Of a stretch of 64,000 nt of DNA, positions 48,261-58,030 are shown piece after piece. A program made the position numbers and the translations under genes. Within the stretch, counting starts at the first letter, position 1. The number at the start of each line of letters is the position of its first letter. The DNA comes from Hyphomonadaceae bacterium (lineage in GTDB: Bacteria; Pseudomonadota; Alphaproteobacteria; Caulobacterales; Hyphomonadaceae), in NCBI GenBank assembly GCA_024742355.1, contig JANSYM010000002.1:1-64000 (forward strand), given 5' to 3'. The notes beneath the pieces were generated by a model that worked only from the letters and a program-made list of their open reading frames with translations, was not told the origin of the DNA and made no database searches.

Positions 48261-49814
48261 ATGACCCCTGCGACCCTTCTCTCCGGCGAACATGCTGAAG
48301 ATGTGCTTTCGCGTCTCTCTGATTGGATAGCGACCGCGCAAAAATGCGCTCTAGTGTTCGTTACAGCGACAGAAGGTGGCGCTGTCAGAGCGCCGGGCGC
48401 CCTGCTCGCTGTCGGTGAACAGACCAGCATCGGATACATTTCGGGTGGTTGTATTGATGCCGACGTCGAATTGCAGGCGCGACAAGCGTGCGCAAAGGGT
48501 GAATCCAGGGCGCTGCGATATGGTGCGGGATCGCCATTTGTCGATCTGCCATTGCCGTGTGGCGGCGCGATTGAGGTCTTCATCGCCTGCAATCCTGATA
48601 TCACTTCGATCATGTCTGCCCGCGATCGCCTGATCTCGCGGCAAGAGGCGGAGTTGATCGTTCGGACCGACGGCACCATTGTTCTCGGCTCCGACATAGA
48701 GCGTCCGGCGCACGGTGATCATGTCTTCACGTATTGTCCGAAACTGCGTCTGCGCATCGCGGGTCGCGGCGCCGATGCCCTCGCTTTAGCACGCGTCAGC
48801 GATGCTGCAGGATACGCAACACACTTGCAGCTGGTGGATGACGAGGACCTCGAAAACGCAAGCGCCGCGGGATTGCCATCGCTCGAGCGTTTGTCCACTC
48901 CGGCCGCGATATCTGCGAACACAGACGACGCCTGGACCGCTTTCGTCCTCCTTTTTCATGATCAGGACTGGGAAGTACCGCTATTGCAGCAAGCCGTTCG
49001 AGGACCTGCTTTCTACGTTGGCGCTGTCGGCAGTCGCCGTACGCACGCCAATCGATGCGACGCGTTGAAAACGGCCGGGTGTTCGGCGGAAGAAATCGCG
49101 GCCATCCATGGCCCAATTGGGCTTGTGCCGTCCTTGCGAGATGCTTCCATGCTGGCAATCTCAACCCTGGCTGAAATCGTTGGTTCTTTCCCCGCGCGGT
49201 CATCAAGCCGCCGACCACGGACCGCCTTGCTCATGCTGGCCGCGGGCGCATCGAGTCGCTTCGAAACCGGGGACAAGCTCCTCGCAGACCTGGATGGACT
49301 GTCGGTTCTGGAGCGGGCGGCATCCAATGTTCCAGGCACGCCGGACCTCATAAAAGTCGCCATAATATCCAGCGAAACGCCTCGCCGCCGGGAAATCCTC
49401 GAAAGACAGGGATGGCGCACGATTGAAAATTCATCATCTCATCTGGGCCAATCCACCTCATTGAAGCTCGGTATTGAAGCGTTGCAAAATCTCTCAGAGA
49501 TCGATCAGGTCATTGTGCTGCTGGGCGACATGCCATTTGTTCCAGCCACACACATCGAAGCGCTTCGGCAGTGCGCCGATCTTCCCAGCACGTCTTGTGT
49601 GATGTCCGAGAGCGACGGCGTCATCTCGCCTCCCGCTTTGTTCAAGCGCGAGCATTTCGGAAAACTCATTGCGCTTGAGGGTGATCGCGGGGCAAAAGCA
49701 ATCTATCAAGCCATCGAGCATGGCAACGTGACCGTACCACTGCCAGACAAACACGCTGCTGATATTGATGTTCTAGCGGATCTCGAACGCGCAAAGGAGG
49801 TTGTTGATGCCTGA
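48261..49814 (+). CDS. XdhC/CoxI family protein fused to MobA-like NTP transferase (MocA-type molybdenum cofactor cytidylyltransferase)
   Basis: XdhC part: GCIDADVELQARQ, FYVGAVGSRRTHANR, GPIGLVPSLRDASMLAISTLAEIV; MobA part: TALLMLAAGASSRFETGDKLLADLDG, VIVLLGDMPFV, GDRGAKAIYQA. Confidence 0.92.
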   Translation: MTPATLLSGEHAEDVLSRLSDWIATAQKCALVFVTATEGGAVRAPGALLAVGEQTSIGYISGGCIDADVELQARQACAKGESRALRYGAGSPFVDLPLPCGGAIEVFIACNPDITSIMSARDRLISRQEAELIVRTDGTIVLGSDIERPAHGDHVFTYCPKLRLRIAGRGADALALARVSDAAGYATHLQLVDDEDLENASAAGLPSLERLSTPAAISANTDDAWTAFVLLFHDQDWEVPLLQQAVRGPAFYVGAVGSRRTHANRCDALKTAGCSAEEIAAIHGPIGLVPSLRDASMLAISTLAEIVGSFPARSSSRRPRTALLMLAAGASSRFETGDKLLADLDGLSVLERAASNVPGTPDLIKVAIISSETPRRREILERQGWRTIENSSSHLGQSTSLKLGIEALQNLSEIDQVIVLLGDMPFVPATHIEALRQCADLPSTSCVMSESDGVISPPALFKREHFGKLIALEGDRGAKAIYQAIEHGNVTVPLPDKHAADIDVLADLERAKEVVDA

Positions 49815-50838
49815 CGACCTGGGACGCACGAATAGCAAGCCGCTTGTCGATCAATTTGGACGTCAGGTGACGTATTTGAGATTATCGGTGACGGATCGAT
49901 GCGATCTGCGCTGCACCTATTGCATGGCCGAACGGATGCAGTTTCTCCCCAAACAGGAACTGCTCACGATTGAAGAACTGGATCAGGTGGCGGCCGCCTT
50001 CATCCGCCGCGGCGTACAAAAAATCCGAATTACTGGCGGCGAACCACTGGTGCGGCGTGGCATGCCAGAACTGATTGAACGGCTTGGTGGTTATCTCGGC
50101 CGTGGCCTGGAAGAGCTCACGCTGACGACCAATGGTACATTGCTGGACAAGTTCGCCGATTTGTTGGTGGAGAATGGCGTCAAGCGCATAAATGTGTCCC
50201 TCGACTCGCTGGATCCGCAAGGTTTCGAGCGGATCACACGACGCGGAAAGCTGGACAAGGTGCTCGCCGGAATTGATGCCGCGCTTGAAGCGGGCCTCAA
50301 GATCAAGATCAATACGGTCGCTATGAAACACGATAATCTGTCCGAGCTGCCTGCTATGATAGAGTGGGCGCATGGGAAAGGCATGGACCTCACTCTGATT
50401 GAGGTGATGCCATTGGGCGACACGGGCGAAGACCGGATCGACCAATACATTCCGTTGCCCATGGTGCGCGACCAGCTTGAAACGAGATGGCATATGCAAG
50501 ACGCCCATGTGTCGGAAATGAACGCGGGTCCGTCGCGATATGTGCATATCCGCGAAACCGGTGGCAAACTCGGCTTCATTACGCCGCTCACCAACAATTT
50601 TTGTGCGGGATGCAATCGTGTGCGTGTGACCTGCACCGGGCGTATTTATATGTGCCTGGGTCAGGATGATCATATTGACCTGCGGGCGGCGATCCGCGAT
50701 TCTGAGGATTCAGCTCAGGCGCTCGACTCATGCCTGGATCGGGCGCTTCTGAAAAAGCCAGAGCGGCATGAATTCAACATCAAAAACCGCGGTGAGGCCC
50801 CTGCTCTGCCGCGGCATATGTCAGTGACGGGCGGATAA
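49807..50838 (+). CDS. moaA: GTP 3',8-cyclase MoaA
   Basis: LRLSVTDRCDLRCTYCMAE radical SAM motif, RITGGEPLVRR, C-terminal FCAGCNRVRVTCTGRIYMCLGQ, terminal GG. Confidence 0.97.
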   Translation: MPDDLGRTNSKPLVDQFGRQVTYLRLSVTDRCDLRCTYCMAERMQFLPKQELLTIEELDQVAAAFIRRGVQKIRITGGEPLVRRGMPELIERLGGYLGRGLEELTLTTNGTLLDKFADLLVENGVKRINVSLDSLDPQGFERITRRGKLDKVLAGIDAALEAGLKIKINTVAMKHDNLSELPAMIEWAHGKGMDLTLIEVMPLGDTGEDRIDQYIPLPMVRDQLETRWHMQDAHVSEMNAGPSRYVHIRETGGKLGFITPLTNNFCAGCNRVRVTCTGRIYMCLGQDDHIDLRAAIRDSEDSAQALDSCLDRALLKKPERHEFNIKNRGEAPALPRHMSVTGG

Positions 50839-51086: not shown

Positions 51087-51545
51087 ATGCTGACCGTCAC
51101 CGAGGGGCCGCTTGATGCAAGCGCCTTGCTCAATGAATTTGAAAAAACCGCTATGGGCGCAGGCGCGATTGTCAGTTTTACCGGCTTGGTGCGTGCAGAG
51201 GCAGCCGCGGGACAGGTCAAAGGTCTGTATCTCCAGGCCTATTCGCCCATGACGGAGAACGGCATTCAGGCTGCGATTGATGAAGCAAAAACTCGGTGGC
51301 CTGTCCCAAATGTATCCGTGGCGCATCGCGTCGGCGAAATGATGGCCGGCGAGGCGATCGTATTTGTCGCGACTGCGTCCGTGCATCGACGCGCCGCCTT
51401 TGAGGCAGCCGACTTTCTGATGGATTACCTGAAAACCAAAGCCGTGTTCTGGAAACGCGAAACGACGGATCAGGGTGAGGCTTGGATCGAGCCGCGAGCT
51501 GATGATTATGCTGATGCTGAACGATGGGCGAAATCGTCGGATTGA
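51087..51545 (+). CDS. moaE: Molybdopterin synthase large subunit
   Basis: GAIVSFTGLVRAE, VAHRVGEMMAGEAIVFVATASVHRRAAFEAADFLMDYLKTKAVFWKRE. Confidence 0.97.
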   Translation: MLTVTEGPLDASALLNEFEKTAMGAGAIVSFTGLVRAEAAAGQVKGLYLQAYSPMTENGIQAAIDEAKTRWPVPNVSVAHRVGEMMAGEAIVFVATASVHRRAAFEAADFLMDYLKTKAVFWKRETTDQGEAWIEPRADDYADAERWAKSSD

Positions 51546-51693: not shown

Positions 51694-52146
51694 ATGGCGA
51701 CACTCAAGATCAATGGCGAAACCGTAACGGTGGATGTGGCAGATGACACACCGCTACTCTGGGTTATTCGCGAACAAGTCGGGCTCACAGGGGCCAAGTA
51801 TGGATGTGGAATTGCCCAATGCGGCACATGCACCATTCATGTCGATGGCAGCCCAGTGAGGTCGTGTGTCTATCCAGTCGGCGCCCTTTCTGGTGAAGAG
51901 GAAATCACCACGATTGAAGGCCTCTCCGAGGAAGCGAACCACCCGGTGCAGGAAGCGTGGGCGGAACTCGATATTCCGCAATGCGGATACTGCCAGCCTG
52001 GGATGATCATGGCCGTTGCCGGCATGCTCAACGACAATCCAAATCCTTCGGACGAAGATATTGATGCCGAGATCACCAATATCTGTCGCTGCGGGACACT
52101 GGCGCGCGTCCGCAAGGGCATCAAGCTCGCCGTCGAAAAATCGTAA
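51694..52146 (+). CDS. (2Fe-2S)-binding subunit of molybdenum hydroxylase (IorA-like)
   Basis: KYGCGIAQCGTCTIHVDG, CGYCQPGMIMAVAGML, CRCGTLARVRKGI. Confidence 0.94.
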   Translation: MATLKINGETVTVDVADDTPLLWVIREQVGLTGAKYGCGIAQCGTCTIHVDGSPVRSCVYPVGALSGEEEITTIEGLSEEANHPVQEAWAELDIPQCGYCQPGMIMAVAGMLNDNPNPSDEDIDAEITNICRCGTLARVRKGIKLAVEKS

Positions 52147-52158
52147 GGGAGACGAACC

Positions 52159-54405
52159 ATGGCTGATACAGGAATTCTCTCCCGCCGCGGCTTTATCGTC
52201 GGCACCGGGGCCACTGGCCTCACCATTGGTATCCTCGCAAGTTGTTCGCCCGGCGCGTCGGGCCCTGAGGAGCCCGATTACTCGGACCTGCCCCCAAATG
52301 ATGAGGTCAATGCGTGGGTGCATATTGATCATGATGACACGGTGACCGTTCGCATTGCTCGTTCTGAAATGGGGCAAGGTACGCTCACCGGACTTGCACA
52401 ATTGGTGGCCGATGAACTCGATGCTGACTGGGACAAAGTCACAACGGTCTATCCAACCCCCGGCGAAAACCTGGCCCGCGAACGGGTCTGGCGCAGCTAC
52501 TCCACAGGTGGCAGCCAGGGCATCCGTGGATCGCAGGATTATGTCCGCGAAGGAGCCGCCGCCGCAAAAGCAATGCTGATCGAAGCCGCCGCGAACGAAT
52601 GGGGCGTTGCAGCCTCAGAATGTACGTCGGCCGATAGCGTGATTACGCACGGCCCAAGCGGCCAGACGACCACCTATGGCGCCGTTGCGGGCGCAGCAGG
52701 AAAGCTTGCACCGCCTCTGGAAGTGACCGTCAAAGACCCGAGCGAGTGGAAGATTATCGGCGAAGCCAAGAAGCGTCTCGATACCGCCGACAAGCTGATT
52801 GGTGCACAAGTCTATGGCGCGGATATCGGTCTCGAAGATGTTCTTAAAGACACTGACGCGACGCCGACAGAACTGCTGAGCGCCTCGATCCGCCAATCGC
52901 CGAAGATTGGAGCGACTGTTGCATCGTTTGACGCCGCAGCCGTGGAGAATATGCCGGGGGTCCGCAAAGTCGTTGCTTTAAACAATCCATTCGGTGAAGG
53001 GCAAAACGCGGTAGCCGTCATCGCCGAAACCTGGTGGCAGGCAAATTCCGCGCTGGATGCTTTGCCGATTGAATGGGAAGGCGGTGTCGATTTCTCGACC
53101 GAGGCTTTTGAGGCCGAACTCGATGATGGTCTGACTTCAGACGAGGCGTTCGTGGGTAATGGTGGTGGTGACCTCGCCGGCGCGTTTGCCGATGCTGCGC
53201 AGGTGATCGAAGCCACATACAATATGCCGTTTCAGAACCATGCGTGTATGGAGCCAATGAACACAACGGCGCTTTATACGGACGATAGGTGCGAAATCTG
53301 GTGCCCGACCCAAAATGGTGAAGCGGCCTTAGCGGCTGTATCTGAAGCGTCAGGCCTGGATATCCAGAATTGCGAGGTTTACAAAGTCCATCTTGGCGGT
53401 GGCTTCGGGCGCCGCGGTGCACCGGACTATGTCCAACAAGCCGTGATGCTGGCCATGGAGGTTCCGGGCACTCCAGTGAAGCTGCTCTGGACCCGCGAAG
53501 AAGACATGAAGCATGGCTTCTTTCATCCAACCACCAAGGGCCGCGTTCGCGGCGCACTGGACGCGGATGGCAATCTGACGGGTTTGCATCTGCGCATTTC
53601 CGGTCAGTCGATCCTCGCTGCCCTGATCCCACAAGCGCTTCAGGACGGTGTTGACTACGCGACCTTCCAGGGGTTGTTGCCGCCCGGCGTCGATCCACGT
53701 CTGGAAGACCAGACCTTGAAATATTCATTCGATAATTTCCTGGTCGATCACGCCATGCGTAATCCGCCCGTACGGCCTGGATTTTGGCGCGGCGTGAACC
53801 TGAACCAGAACGCCATCTACCTTGAGTGCTTCATGGATGAGCTGGCGCATGCGGCTGGGCGCGATCCTCTGGAGTTTCGTCTGGCGCACCTCCAGGACAG
53901 CCCGGAAGCAGCAGCTGTCTTGCAAGCCGTCGCCGATCGCTCCGGATGGGGCCAGGATGACGGCAAGCATCGCGGCCTCTGCGTTATGTATGGCTTTGGC
54001 TCGTACGTCGCGGCCTGTTCGGAAGTCACAGTTGACGAGGACGGCGTGCTATCGATCGATCGCATCGTCGCCGCGACCGATCCGGGGCATGCGGTAAACC
54101 CGCAGCAAATCGAAGCCCAGGTTGAAGGGTCATTCGTCTACGGGCTTTCGGCCATGCTGTTTGGTGAAATCACATTTGAGGACGGTGTGGCACAGGAGAC
54201 GAATTTCGACACATTCAACTCCATGCGCATTGTCGACATGCCGGAAGTCGAAACGATCATCATGCCGTCGGGTGGTTTCTGGGGCGGGGTTGGCGAACCA
54301 ACCATCGCCGTGGCAGCACCATCGGTTCTCAACGCGATCTATGCGGCGACGGGCAAACGTGTCCGTCAGCTGCCGATCAAGGATCAGAACTTGCGGGATG
54401 CCTAA
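52159..54405 (+). CDS. Molybdopterin-binding xanthine oxidase family subunit (IorB-like)
   Basis: TAT-like SRRGFIVGTGATGLT; HLGGGFGRRGAPDY; catalytic-type GGVGEPTIAVAAPSVLNAIYAATGKRVRQLP. Confidence 0.93.
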   Translation: MADTGILSRRGFIVGTGATGLTIGILASCSPGASGPEEPDYSDLPPNDEVNAWVHIDHDDTVTVRIARSEMGQGTLTGLAQLVADELDADWDKVTTVYPTPGENLARERVWRSYSTGGSQGIRGSQDYVREGAAAAKAMLIEAAANEWGVAASECTSADSVITHGPSGQTTTYGAVAGAAGKLAPPLEVTVKDPSEWKIIGEAKKRLDTADKLIGAQVYGADIGLEDVLKDTDATPTELLSASIRQSPKIGATVASFDAAAVENMPGVRKVVALNNPFGEGQNAVAVIAETWWQANSALDALPIEWEGGVDFSTEAFEAELDDGLTSDEAFVGNGGGDLAGAFADAAQVIEATYNMPFQNHACMEPMNTTALYTDDRCEIWCPTQNGEAALAAVSEASGLDIQNCEVYKVHLGGGFGRRGAPDYVQQAVMLAMEVPGTPVKLLWTREEDMKHGFFHPTTKGRVRGALDADGNLTGLHLRISGQSILAALIPQALQDGVDYATFQGLLPPGVDPRLEDQTLKYSFDNFLVDHAMRNPPVRPGFWRGVNLNQNAIYLECFMDELAHAAGRDPLEFRLAHLQDSPEAAAVLQAVADRSGWGQDDGKHRGLCVMYGFGSYVAACSEVTVDEDGVLSIDRIVAATDPGHAVNPQQIEAQVEGSFVYGLSAMLFGEITFEDGVAQETNFDTFNSMRIVDMPEVETIIMPSGGFWGGVGEPTIAVAAPSVLNAIYAATGKRVRQLPIKDQNLRDA

Positions 54406-54745
54406 GACGAGCCTTCTTGTCGTCGCACCGCTGTTTGGCTTTTTGAGCCTTGCAGGGTGCGGCGATACGAGCCCGTCATTGGACGATCCCGCGAACAACA
54501 CGATAGGCGCCGCGACGGACCGTGCGACCGCACTTGCAATGGCCTGTTCCGGGTGCCACGCGGCTCAAAGCGATGCCGTGGTTTCGCTCGACGAGTATGG
54601 CGCCGATGCTTTGCGCGACGCGTTGCGCCGCTATAAAACAGAATCGGATGGAACGACCGTCATGCACCGTCTCGCACGGGGGTATTCAGACGAGGACGTG
54701 GATCTGCTGGCCACATATTTTGATACAGAGGGCGTTGAGCCATGA
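54398..54745 (+). CDS. Class I cytochrome c, lipoprotein-like (FccA/SoxE-like)
   Basis: CSGCH heme motif (ALAMACSGCHAAQ), signal LSLAGCGD; overlaps the iorB stop and precedes the flavoprotein gene. Confidence 0.85.
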   Translation: MPKTSLLVVAPLFGFLSLAGCGDTSPSLDDPANNTIGAATDRATALAMACSGCHAAQSDAVVSLDEYGADALRDALRRYKTESDGTTVMHRLARGYSDEDVDLLATYFDTEGVEP

Positions 54746-56013
54746 TTGGTTTGGACCGCCGCAGTCTGCTCAAAGGGCTTGGACTGGGCGCAGCTGCGCT
54801 CACCCTGCCCTTTCAGGCGTTCGCACGGTCAAAAGCCAATATCGTCGTGATTGGAGGCGGATTCGGAGGGGCCAGTGCTGCGCGTACGCTGGCGACGCTC
54901 CTGCCATCTGCCTCGGTGACGCTCGTCGACGCCAATCCAGTCTATACCGCCTGCCCTTTCAGCAATCTGGTTTTGGGCACAGATCGCCCACTCAGCGCTC
55001 AACAATTTGGGTATGACAGCTTGCAGCGCCTTGGCGTGACCGTCGTGACGGCGCTGGCCACGGATATTGATCCGGTCGCACAGACGGTGACCCTGCAAGG
55101 TGCCGAAGATCTGACGTATGACCGCCTCATCCTGTCGCCAGGCATCGATATGCGGTGGAATGCCCTGGAAGGATATGACGAGGCGGCCGCCGAACTTCTG
55201 CCGCACGCCTGGAAGGCTGGACCGCAAACGACGTTGTTACGGCAACAGCTCGACGCACTTGAAGACGGTGATAATGTCATCATGAGTGTGCCCACAGCGC
55301 CATTTCGCTGTCCACCCGGACCTTATGAACGGGCGAGCCTGATTGCGCATTACTTGAAAACACGGAAGCCACGGTCAAAACTCATTGTACTGGACGCCAA
55401 GGATAGCTTTTCAAAAATGGCCCTGTTTCAGGAGGCCTGGTCCGAACACTATCCGGATCATCTGGAATGGCGCGGTGCCAGCGATGATGGAACCGTCGCG
55501 CGCGTCGACGCGGTCGGGCGCGCCCTGGAAACAGATTTTGAAACCTTCTATGCACCTGTCATCAATGTGATCCCACCGCAAAAAACGGGGTTCATCGCTG
55601 ATCGCGCGGGGGTCAGCGATGCCACGGGGTGGTGCCCGATCGATCCCCTGGCCTTTGAATCCACGCTGCAAGACAATATTCACGTGATCGGCGACGCTAC
55701 GATTGCTGCGCCCATGCCGAAGTCCGCATTCTCTGCAAATCTACAAGCCAAGATCTGCGCCCTCGGCGTGGCGCGCCTTGTTTCCGGATTGTCGCCTGAG
55801 CCCACGGTGCTCGCAAACACTTGTTACTCATTCACGACACCGGACGAAGCGATTTCGATTGCGGGTGTGTACTCCAATGAAAACAACGCACTAAAGAGCA
55901 TCTCCGGCGCTGGCGGCGTGAGCCCCTTGGCGGCGGATAAGACAATTCGGGCTCAAGAAGCTGCGCAAGCTCGGTCCTGGTTTGAAACGATCACCTCGGG
56001 AGCTTTTGGATGA
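54742..56013 (+). CDS. soxF: Flavocytochrome c sulfide dehydrogenase flavoprotein subunit (SoxF/FccB)
   Basis: TAT signal RRSLLKGLGLGAAAL, VVIGGGFGGASAARTL, YTACPFSNLVLGTDR. Confidence 0.93.
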   Translation: MIGLDRRSLLKGLGLGAAALTLPFQAFARSKANIVVIGGGFGGASAARTLATLLPSASVTLVDANPVYTACPFSNLVLGTDRPLSAQQFGYDSLQRLGVTVVTALATDIDPVAQTVTLQGAEDLTYDRLILSPGIDMRWNALEGYDEAAAELLPHAWKAGPQTTLLRQQLDALEDGDNVIMSVPTAPFRCPPGPYERASLIAHYLKTRKPRSKLIVLDAKDSFSKMALFQEAWSEHYPDHLEWRGASDDGTVARVDAVGRALETDFETFYAPVINVIPPQKTGFIADRAGVSDATGWCPIDPLAFESTLQDNIHVIGDATIAAPMPKSAFSANLQAKICALGVARLVSGLSPEPTVLANTCYSFTTPDEAISIAGVYSNENNALKSISGAGGVSPLAADKTIRAQEAAQARSWFETITSGAFG

Positions 56014-56468
56014 TCTGGCGCGCGCTTGCGGCGGGCTTGTGCCTAAGCGCCTGCGGCGCTCCAAATTCCGCTTTGATTGATCAAGACATGATCACCGGTG
56101 ACTCGATTGAGCAGCCTTTGGTCAACGCCCCTGGTGATCCCGTTCGCGGGCAGCGTCTTTTCGTAGATCGAGATGCGGGCCATTGTGTGCTTTGTCATCA
56201 AGTGATGGGTTTGGACGCCGAATTTCAGGGAAATATCGGACCAGATCTGTCTTTAGTGGGCGCGCGATTGAGCCCCGGTCAGCTTCGTCTACGCATCGTC
56301 GATTATCAAATTGTGCGACCTGGGACGCTGATGCCCTCCTATTATCGCATTCATGACCTACATCAGGTGGAAGAAACCCATTCCGGGGCGCCAATTTTGT
56401 CGGCGCGGGACATTGAGGATATTGTTGCTTACCTGGAGCGACGTAAGGACGTAGAAGACGATGCATAA
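56010..56468 (+). CDS. soxX: Sulfur oxidation c-type cytochrome SoxX
   Basis: GHCVLCHQV heme motif, GNIGPDLSLVGARLSPGQLRLRIVDYQIVRPGTLMPSYYR. Confidence 0.92.
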   Translation: MIWRALAAGLCLSACGAPNSALIDQDMITGDSIEQPLVNAPGDPVRGQRLFVDRDAGHCVLCHQVMGLDAEFQGNIGPDLSLVGARLSPGQLRLRIVDYQIVRPGTLMPSYYRIHDLHQVEETHSGAPILSARDIEDIVAYLERRKDVEDDA

Positions 56469-56925
56469 GACGCCGCCAATACTCAGCCGGAGGGACCTGC
56501 TCTCAGTCGGTGTGGGTGCTGTGATCGTGTCTGCATCGCCGCTGCGGAGCTTCGCCGCTCAGGCGGATTTAGATCGTGCGCAAAAGGAATTGTTCGGCGA
56601 TCGTCCTGTCACGGAAGGCCGGGTCGCCTTGACCTTGCCTCCGATCGCAGAGAACGGCTATTCGGTGCCGCTTTCGGTCGACATTGAAAGTCCCATGACC
56701 GATCAGGATTACGTCAAACGCGTGGCGATTCTGTCGCCTAGAAACCCCCTGCCCCTGATTGCGCAGTTCCAATTTACCCCGCAATCGGGCCGGGCACGCG
56801 TTGATGCCCGTATTCGGATGTCGGGCACACAATCCATCCAGGCAATCGCTGAGATGAATGACGGTTCGCTCTGGTCTGGCAGCCGCGAAACCGTCGTGAC
56901 GCTCGCCGCTTGCGTGGTGCTATAG
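56461..56925 (+). CDS. soxY: SoxY-like thiosulfate carrier subunit with non-canonical C-terminus
   Basis: TAT signal SRRDLLSVGVGAVIVSASPLR; VPLSVDIESPMTDQDYVKRVAILSPRNPLPLIAQFQFTP; ends VVTLAACVVL; adjacent to soxX, soxZ and soxA. Confidence 0.88.
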   Translation: MHKTPPILSRRDLLSVGVGAVIVSASPLRSFAAQADLDRAQKELFGDRPVTEGRVALTLPPIAENGYSVPLSVDIESPMTDQDYVKRVAILSPRNPLPLIAQFQFTPQSGRARVDARIRMSGTQSIQAIAEMNDGSLWSGSRETVVTLAACVVL

Positions 56926-56933
56926 AGAGAAAC

Positions 56934-57254
56934 ATGGCCAGCATTCGTCTCGCAGTCCCGGAAACCGCCAGAGTCGATGAAATAGTCGAAGTGAAGGCGT
57001 TGATCCGCCACCCAATGGAAAGTGGGCACAGGCGGGGCTCGCGAGGCGAAGTAATACCGCGCGACATCATCACACGATTTGAATGCCGCTATGCCGGCGC
57101 GTTGGTGTTTGCTGGCGACTTTCATCCCGGCATCGCCGCAAACCCGTTGATAACGTTCCATGTGCGGGCGACGCGTAGCGGGGATTTAGAGTTCACGTGG
57201 ACTGATCAGCACGGAGAAAGCTGGTCCGAATCCGCCACGCTGACGGTGACATGA
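56934..57254 (+). CDS. soxZ: Thiosulfate oxidation carrier complex protein SoxZ
   Basis: EIVEVKALIRHPMESGHRR...PRDIITRFECRYAGALVFAGDFHPGIAANPLITFHVRATRSGDLEFTWTDQHG. Confidence 0.93.
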   Translation: MASIRLAVPETARVDEIVEVKALIRHPMESGHRRGSRGEVIPRDIITRFECRYAGALVFAGDFHPGIAANPLITFHVRATRSGDLEFTWTDQHGESWSESATLTVT

Positions 57255-58030
57255 ACCGGATTGTCGGCTGTGTGAGCCTGGCGACAATAGCGGCGTGCAG
57301 CGCGCCCCCTCAAGAGCGCGCCCATGACCGCCTGTCGCCTGATGAGATTGTTTCCGGAAGCGTATTCCTGACCGCTGAAACACGTGCCTTGCAGGCAGAT
57401 GATTTTGCCAATCCGGGGTTCCTTTGGGTCGATCGCGGTGAGGCCTTGTTTTCTGAAGCGCCCCAGACAGGACCGGCGTGTGTATCGTGTCACGCAGATG
57501 GGCTGGCAGGCGTTGCAGCAACTTATCCTGCTTATGATTCAGACACAGACACAGTCCTCAACATTGAAGGCCGTATCAATCAATGCCGCGCAAAACATCA
57601 GGGCGCATCCAGCCTCGATTATGAGAGTGATGAGCTTTTATCGCTGACGGCCTATATTGCCAATCAATCGCGCGGAGCCCCCGTTTCAGTCGACACCTCC
57701 GGATCAGCCAGAGCGGTGTATGAAGAAGGAGCGCGCTATTTCCGCACGCGCCGCGGTCAGTTCAATCTGTCCTGCCAGCAGTGTCACACCGAAAACTGGG
57801 GCAAACGTCTGCGCGGAGACACGTTGAGCCAGGGGCACGGCAATGGCTTTCCAGCATATCGATTGGAGTGGCAATCCATGGGGTCTCTGCATCGGCGGTT
57901 GAGAGACTGCGACATGGGCGTTCGAGCAGAACCCCTGCCCTATGGCGACCCGCTCTACATTGCCGTGGAGCTCTATCTTGCCGCTCGTGCGGATGGCCTC
58001 GAAGTCGAAAGCCCAGCAGTGCGGAGATAA
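57251..58030 (+). CDS. soxA: Di-heme sulfur oxidation cytochrome SoxA
   Basis: CVSCH and CQQCH heme motifs; GDTLSQGHGNGFPAYRLEWQSMGSLHRRLRDCDMGVRAEPLPYGDP. Confidence 0.93.
   Translation: MNRIVGCVSLATIAACSAPPQERAHDRLSPDEIVSGSVFLTAETRALQADDFANPGFLWVDRGEALFSEAPQTGPACVSCHADGLAGVAATYPAYDSDTDTVLNIEGRINQCRAKHQGASSLDYESDELLSLTAYIANQSRGAPVSVDTSGSARAVYEEGARYFRTRRGQFNLSCQQCHTENWGKRLRGDTLSQGHGNGFPAYRLEWQSMGSLHRRLRDCDMGVRAEPLPYGDPLYIAVELYLAARADGLEVESPAVRR

Follow-up and report, generated by a model that had tools for sequence, protein, structure and literature searches.

Carriers of the SoxY type

SoxYZ-type carriers are not confined to loci with SoxB. Fused SoxYZ-like proteins occur in clusters for PQQ (or lanthanide) alcohol dehydrogenases, where roles in protection, maturation, or carbon metabolism have been proposed (PMC12997753; PMC11237559). 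A large SoxY phylogeny dropped sequences without GGC (PMC11237559), and thereby left out of its tree the proteins in which alanine precedes the carrier cysteine (xAC arm). This arm type is already known by name: NCBIfam TIGR04487, the "SoxY-related AACIE arm protein" (SoxY_para_1); and the AACIE name is used in public annotation of Methylobacterium and Neorhizobium records. A literature search found no paper that treats the AACIE arm or links SoxY to IorAB, and no description of SoxYZ with a molybdenum hydroxylase as a carrier-enzyme pair. New here is the genomic context of xAC SoxY, and in particular its link to IorAB.

The protein analysed is encoded by a Hyphomonadaceae bacterium (assembly GCA_024742355.1), within positions 1 to 64,000 of contig JANSYM010000002.1; this whole 64,000-nucleotide stretch is termed the window. 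The closest named homologues are from Henriciella and Hyphomonas, genera near which the source bacterium is placed. Comparison of gene neighbourhoods indicates that the xAC arm probably serves IorAB in place of SoxB.

The IorAB-Sox locus

The genes lie in the order IorA-IorB-cytochrome c-FCSD-SoxX-SoxY-SoxZ-SoxA (Table 1). Successive frames overlap (54398/54405, 54742/54745, 56010/56013, 56461/56468, and 57251/57254), and the SoxZ ATG lies 9 bases past the end of the SoxY stop. With frames from IorB to SoxA overlapping or within 9 bases of one another, the arrangement resembles a single transcription unit.

Table 1. Features of the IorAB-Sox region, with positions in the window
Feature	Positions	Strand	Remarks
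XdhC-MobA/MocA fusion, Mo-cofactor maturation	48261..49814	+	PF02625, PF13478, PF12804
MoaA-type radical SAM protein, Mo-cofactor synthesis	49801..50838	+	PF04055, PF06463
MoaE, Mo-cofactor synthesis	51087..51545	+	PF02391
IorA-like [2Fe-2S] subunit	51694..52146	+	PF01799, PF00111
IorB-like molybdopterin hydroxylase subunit (xanthine oxidase family), TAT signal	52159..54405	+	PF02738, PF20256; PDB 8gy3_C 1.5e-76
Small c-type cytochrome, one CxxCH, lipobox-like LAGC	54398..54745	+	weak cytochrome c matches; orthologues found
FCSD/SoxF-type sulfide dehydrogenase flavoprotein, TAT signal	54742..56013	+	PF21706, PF09242; CPFSN and NTCYS cysteines present
SoxX, c-type cytochrome, lipobox-like LSAC	56010..56468	+	TIGR04485 73 bits, cut-off 61
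SoxY, xAC-arm type (TIGR04487-like, just under cut-off)	56461..56925	+	154 aa; carrier Cys151 in AAC-VVL
C-terminal arm of SoxY, VVTLAACVVL-stop	56893..56925	+	codons GTC GTG ACG CTC GCC GCT TGC GTG GTG CTA TAG
SoxZ	56934..57254	+	TIGR04490 92 bits, cut-off 76; PF08770; PDB 2ox5_Z 3.9e-20
SoxA, diheme c-type cytochrome type, lipobox-like IAAC	57251..58030	+	TIGR04484 224 bits, cut-off 110

SoxX and SoxA both exceed their family cut-offs, and SoxA retains the cysteine of RDCDMGVRAE, aligned to that of 1h31, which we take to be the active-site Cys. As judged from their sequences, the SoxXA, SoxZ, and sulfide dehydrogenase genes look intact.

Lipobox-like ends recur in the Hyphomonadaceae, in the small cytochrome c (LAGC), SoxX (LSAC), and SoxA (IAAC), encoded at 54398-58030, and possibly in IorB (LASC). 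The IorAB-Sox system may therefore be membrane-anchored in this family; such ends are missing from most checked relatives in other families.

The SoxY protein and its arm

The SoxY reading frame scores 110.8 bits against Pfam PF13501 (cut-off 28.4). Its best family is TIGR04487, at 154.2 bits, which does not reach the curated cut-off of 172; against TIGR04488, true SoxY, it scores 107.4 bits, under the cut-off of 125. All 21 aligned relatives match both models. A phmmer comparison pairs the protein with PDB 2ox5 (2.7e-13) and aligns its final Cys with the carrier Cys of the solved SoxY.

A first-pass annotation had read the end of the protein as AACVVL, without GGCGG and with the Cys kept, and translation of 56893-56925 gives just that: the GGCGG arm is missing, and the AAC characteristic of TIGR04487 is present. 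The annotation further supposed a less flexible, hydrophobic arm. This was not upheld. An AlphaFold2 model built from 21 homologues (mean pLDDT 82.7) resembles 2nnc and 2oxg in a Foldseek search of the PDB, with TMt about 0.87 (2nnc_A, 0.87). Its last strand ends at residue 147; residues 148-154 have no assigned structure, and pLDDT falls below 50 at 152-154. In the model, then, residues 148-154 still look like a loose tail. Nor can a hydrophobic end define the type, as residues past the Cys are mostly polar or acidic in relatives outside the Hyphomonadaceae (AACIE, AACTEE); hydrophobicity is a local trait of this family.

Alignment of SoxY C-termini, proposed in the same annotation, was informative. 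Among 61 related genomes, the window genome included, 26 have soxY, and all 26 orthologues end in AAC followed by V/I/L, V/I, and L/G/M/D; none is canonical. An arm so uniformly present reflects neither chance nor base-calling error. Sequencing error, or a pseudogene that has lost GGCGG, thus has a negligible probability, given the AAC arm in 25 other family genomes: these SoxY proteins differ, at about 51-80% protein identity; and soxY overlaps soxX, with soxZ starting 9 bases downstream.

Absence of SoxB from the locus

Searches of the whole window genome (99.8% complete) found no match to SoxB, either beside the locus or elsewhere, and did not find SoxC. The complete thiosulfate system, with SoxB and SoxCD, is therefore lacking. 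The earlier observation that soxB is absent nearby thus extends to the whole genome, and SoxB was likewise not found in 22 related genomes holding the cluster.

This pattern would also fit a reduced module for sulfide and sulfane sulfur, in which FCSD, SoxXA, and SoxYZ generate and retain sulfane sulfur with no SoxB involved, and IorAB is merely co-expressed, acting on an unrelated substrate. The arm would then have changed because glycines required by SoxB were no longer selected: the canonical arm is bound in the known SoxB-SoxYZ complex (PDB 4UWQ). In keeping with such a module, FCSD, SoxXA, and SoxZ are each of an intact type, and SoxB and SoxC are missing from the window genome. Relaxed selection would predict drift, however, and the Ala before the Cys is conserved over many families. 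Together with the constancy of IorAB as a neighbour and the distinctness of its IorB, described below, this makes the reduced module a somewhat unlikely account.

Absence of SoxB is a property of the locus rather than of the genome. SoxB is present in 17 of 33 named genomes with xAC SoxY, which rules out the simpler rule that xAC means no SoxB in the genome. There it sits at another locus, and never in the fetched flanks of xAC SoxY from the class sample.

Arm type and neighbouring enzyme

The class sample, 385 genomes taken evenly across the class, was searched with TIGR04487; SoxY loci were extracted with their flanks and sorted by the residue preceding the carrier Cys. Where this is Ala, IorB lies near in 33 of 42 loci and SoxB in none (0/42); where it is Gly (GGC), IorB lies near in 1 of 52 and SoxB in 38 of 52. 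Fisher tests of arm type give 5e-16 for IorB and 8e-15 for SoxB, uncorrected for relatedness; on the SoxY tree there are only 2-3 independent arm-partner pairs, too few for a significance that allows for relatedness, the association being mostly that of one old clade. Three loci outside the simple parse (L086, L229, and L234) were read by eye. L229 and L234 have a GAC arm with IorAB; an SGC arm (L249) also has IorB.

In named genomes, nearly all xAC SoxY genes are preceded by IorAB (Hyphomonas, Ponticaulis, Ancylobacter, Methylobacterium, Mesorhizobium, Bradyrhizobium, and Polynucleobacter). Synteny is retained through the Hyphomonadaceae, and extends to Rhizobiales, Polynucleobacter, and other proteobacteria. 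FCSD, SoxX, and SoxA accompany xAC SoxY less constantly than IorAB does, which counts against the reduced module. The first-pass annotation had suggested an altered carrier chemistry or partner; an altered partner is supported, since IorAB adjoins xAC SoxY and SoxB is absent at the locus.

The association is not a strict rule. IorB was not seen near nine of the 42 xAC loci (L054, L136, L236, L238, L240, L244, L245, L256, and L261). Contig ends account for L054 and L256; those away from contig ends include five of GACS type (L236, L238, L240, L244, and L245) and one of AAC type (L261).

Several loci show other neighbours. At L136 (4932-12113), a SAC-arm SoxXYZA cluster adjoins a DMSO-reductase-family molybdenum enzyme and a ferredoxin, with no IorAB. 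At L236 (5345-9286), GACS-arm SoxXYZA is followed by two PLP-enzyme genes of sulfur-amino-acid type (a Cys/Met metabolism enzyme and a PALP enzyme). L094, L099, L103, and L104 hold SoxYZ pairs ending in GGCSV, GGCST, GGCGS, and GGCAS, respectively, with no match to SoxB, SoxXA, or IorAB in the flank. L086 (3821-4276, minus strand) encodes a fused SoxY-SoxZ with an internal GGCGAPG arm, and an FCSD gene is near.

In six betaproteobacterial contigs the locus is minimal: IorA-IorB-SoxY-SoxZ, without adjoining soxXA. Each of these six genomes encodes SoxA at another site, so SoxXA may act in trans. The loci were therefore not taken as a SoxXA-independent system; they show only that soxXA need not be adjacent.

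The minimal loci, which speak for IorAB as the partner, also bear on another explanation, in which a persulfide on SoxYZ maintains IorAB, either by keeping or restoring the essential sulfido ligand of its periplasmic molybdenum site or by shielding that site from reactive sulfur. Occurrence of IorAB and SoxYZ without adjoining soxXA is what such a role would allow, and the XdhC/MobA, MoaA, and MoaE genes adjoin the window locus; maturation or protection has also been suggested for the fused carriers found with PQQ/lanthanide alcohol dehydrogenases (PMC12997753; PMC11237559). Most loci also hold SoxXA, and often FCSD, however, and so read as catabolic sulfur oxidation. Moreover, XdhC is thought to sulfurate enzymes of the xanthine oxidase type in the cytoplasm, before export. 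Overall, maintenance is an unlikely function for this SoxYZ.

Co-inheritance and phylogeny

An IorB orthologue (at least 70% identity) is present in exactly those 26 of the 61 relatives where SoxY occurs; the remaining 35 hold at most distant IorB paralogues, whose identity over any aligned segment is about 42% at most. Because iorB and soxY are adjacent, their joint loss may be a single deletion, and the co-occurrence supports the link without proving it. Some genomes of the same genus encode a second IorB, a distant paralogue, within a few kb of the Sox-linked IorB (L272 and L274, in genomes G021 and G019).

In a SoxY tree from which the arm columns were excluded, xAC proteins form two groups: the main one, with 54 rows (SH-aLRT 91); and a GACS/GACGG group of 10 rows, one of them SGC (99). 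With only 140 columns to work from, support is modest. The window SoxY groups with over-cut-off TIGR04487 members in the 54-row clade, and IorAB-linked members occur in both groups.

Of the 50 Sox-linked proteins in the IorB tree, 48 group together (support 80; 46 of these, 95), and the two GACGG-linked ones fall in another IorB group. That the IorB of most xAC loci is a distinct clade is not expected of an unrelated enzyme that is simply co-expressed with a reduced module. The main Sox-linked IorB differs from 20 non-linked paralogues, a narrow comparison group all from the same order, at F542, G545, N551, W708, and other positions. F542, G545, and W708 lie near the conserved GVGEP Glu or within the WRG motif, W708 being four residues ahead of that Glu, which we take to be the catalytic base of the enzyme family. 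The distinctive residues may line the substrate funnel.

A model for SoxYZ and IorAB

Together, these comparisons suggest a Sox sulfur-oxidation system rewired for a different partner. That SoxY is the carrier of a SoxB-less Sox branch, serving the periplasmic molybdenum hydroxylase IorAB instead of SoxB/SoxCD, is an evenly balanced proposition, judged from synteny, co-occurrence, and clade structure. A more specific version, in which SoxYZ presents a Cys-bound sulfur or organosulfur adduct to this xanthine-oxidase-family enzyme and IorAB replaces both SoxB and SoxCD in periplasmic oxidation, is put forward tentatively. SoxXA would still couple a reduced sulfur compound (sulfide, persulfide, or thiol) to Cys151, while FCSD would oxidise sulfide alongside; the loaded arm would visit the IorAB molybdenum site, where the bound adduct would be oxidised or released; and the c-type cytochromes of the locus would accept the electrons. 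The change to Ala could have come about because the arm no longer needed to fit SoxB.

The chemistry of this SoxXA-SoxYZ-IorAB route is possible rather than probable. Enzymes of the xanthine oxidase family usually hydroxylate carbon, which counts against the model, and we know of none that acts on protein-bound sulfur.

The model matters for annotation, since carriage of soxXYZA has led many genomes to be counted as sulfur oxidisers. If xAC marks a pathway served by IorAB, SoxB-type and IorAB-type clusters could be told apart by the residue preceding the carrier Cys, a rule that applies per locus and not per genome, because 17 of the 33 xAC genomes also hold a true SoxB. It could also explain sox loci without a confirmed role in thiosulfate oxidation. 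The soxY2 gene of Bradyrhizobium diazoefficiens, for example, is presumably of xAC type. Of the soxY genes in that species, soxY1 alone is required for thiosulfate oxidation, and soxY2 is dispensable (PMC5748708). Energy gain from the sox genes of Polynucleobacter is likewise unconfirmed (PMC3308952). Finally, a molybdenum hydroxylase would join SoxB and the PQQ dehydrogenases as partners of SoxYZ-type carriers.

Comparison with known systems

Canonical SoxY (TIGR04488; Paracoccus and Chlorobium; PDB 2ox5 and 2nnc) shares with the window protein its fold, SoxZ partner, and Cys position. The window SoxY differs in lacking GGCGG, in scoring below the TIGR04488 cut-off, and in belonging to a genome without SoxB or SoxC.

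The fused SoxYZ-like carrier (TIGR04557, found with SoxH and rhodanese) is similar in that a SoxYZ-type carrier is tied to a periplasmic dehydrogenase and not to SoxB. That carrier is one fused protein with a PQQ-enzyme partner, whereas the window has two genes and a molybdenum hydroxylase, and its match to TIGR04557 (75.6 bits) is well under the cut-off of 140. SoxY variants of symbionts likewise combine changed swinging arms with changed gene neighbours, including DMSO-reductase genes (PMC11237559).

On the enzyme side, the window IorB aligns over its full length (1.5e-76) with the large subunit of a membrane-bound molybdenum aldehyde dehydrogenase (PDB 8gy3), and shares GGGFGRR and GVGEP with this group, which includes isoquinoline 1-oxidoreductase IorAB. 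The Sox-linked IorB clade is set apart by its own residues near the conserved Glu.

The nearest relative of all is the TIGR04487 AACIE family, with the same SoxY fold and the same Cys in a C-terminal xAC arm. The window arm departs from it in ending VVL rather than IE, and its score of 154.2 bits stays below 172. Gene order is that of an annotated Methylobacterium plasmid and, unlisted genes aside, of a Neorhizobium plasmid too.
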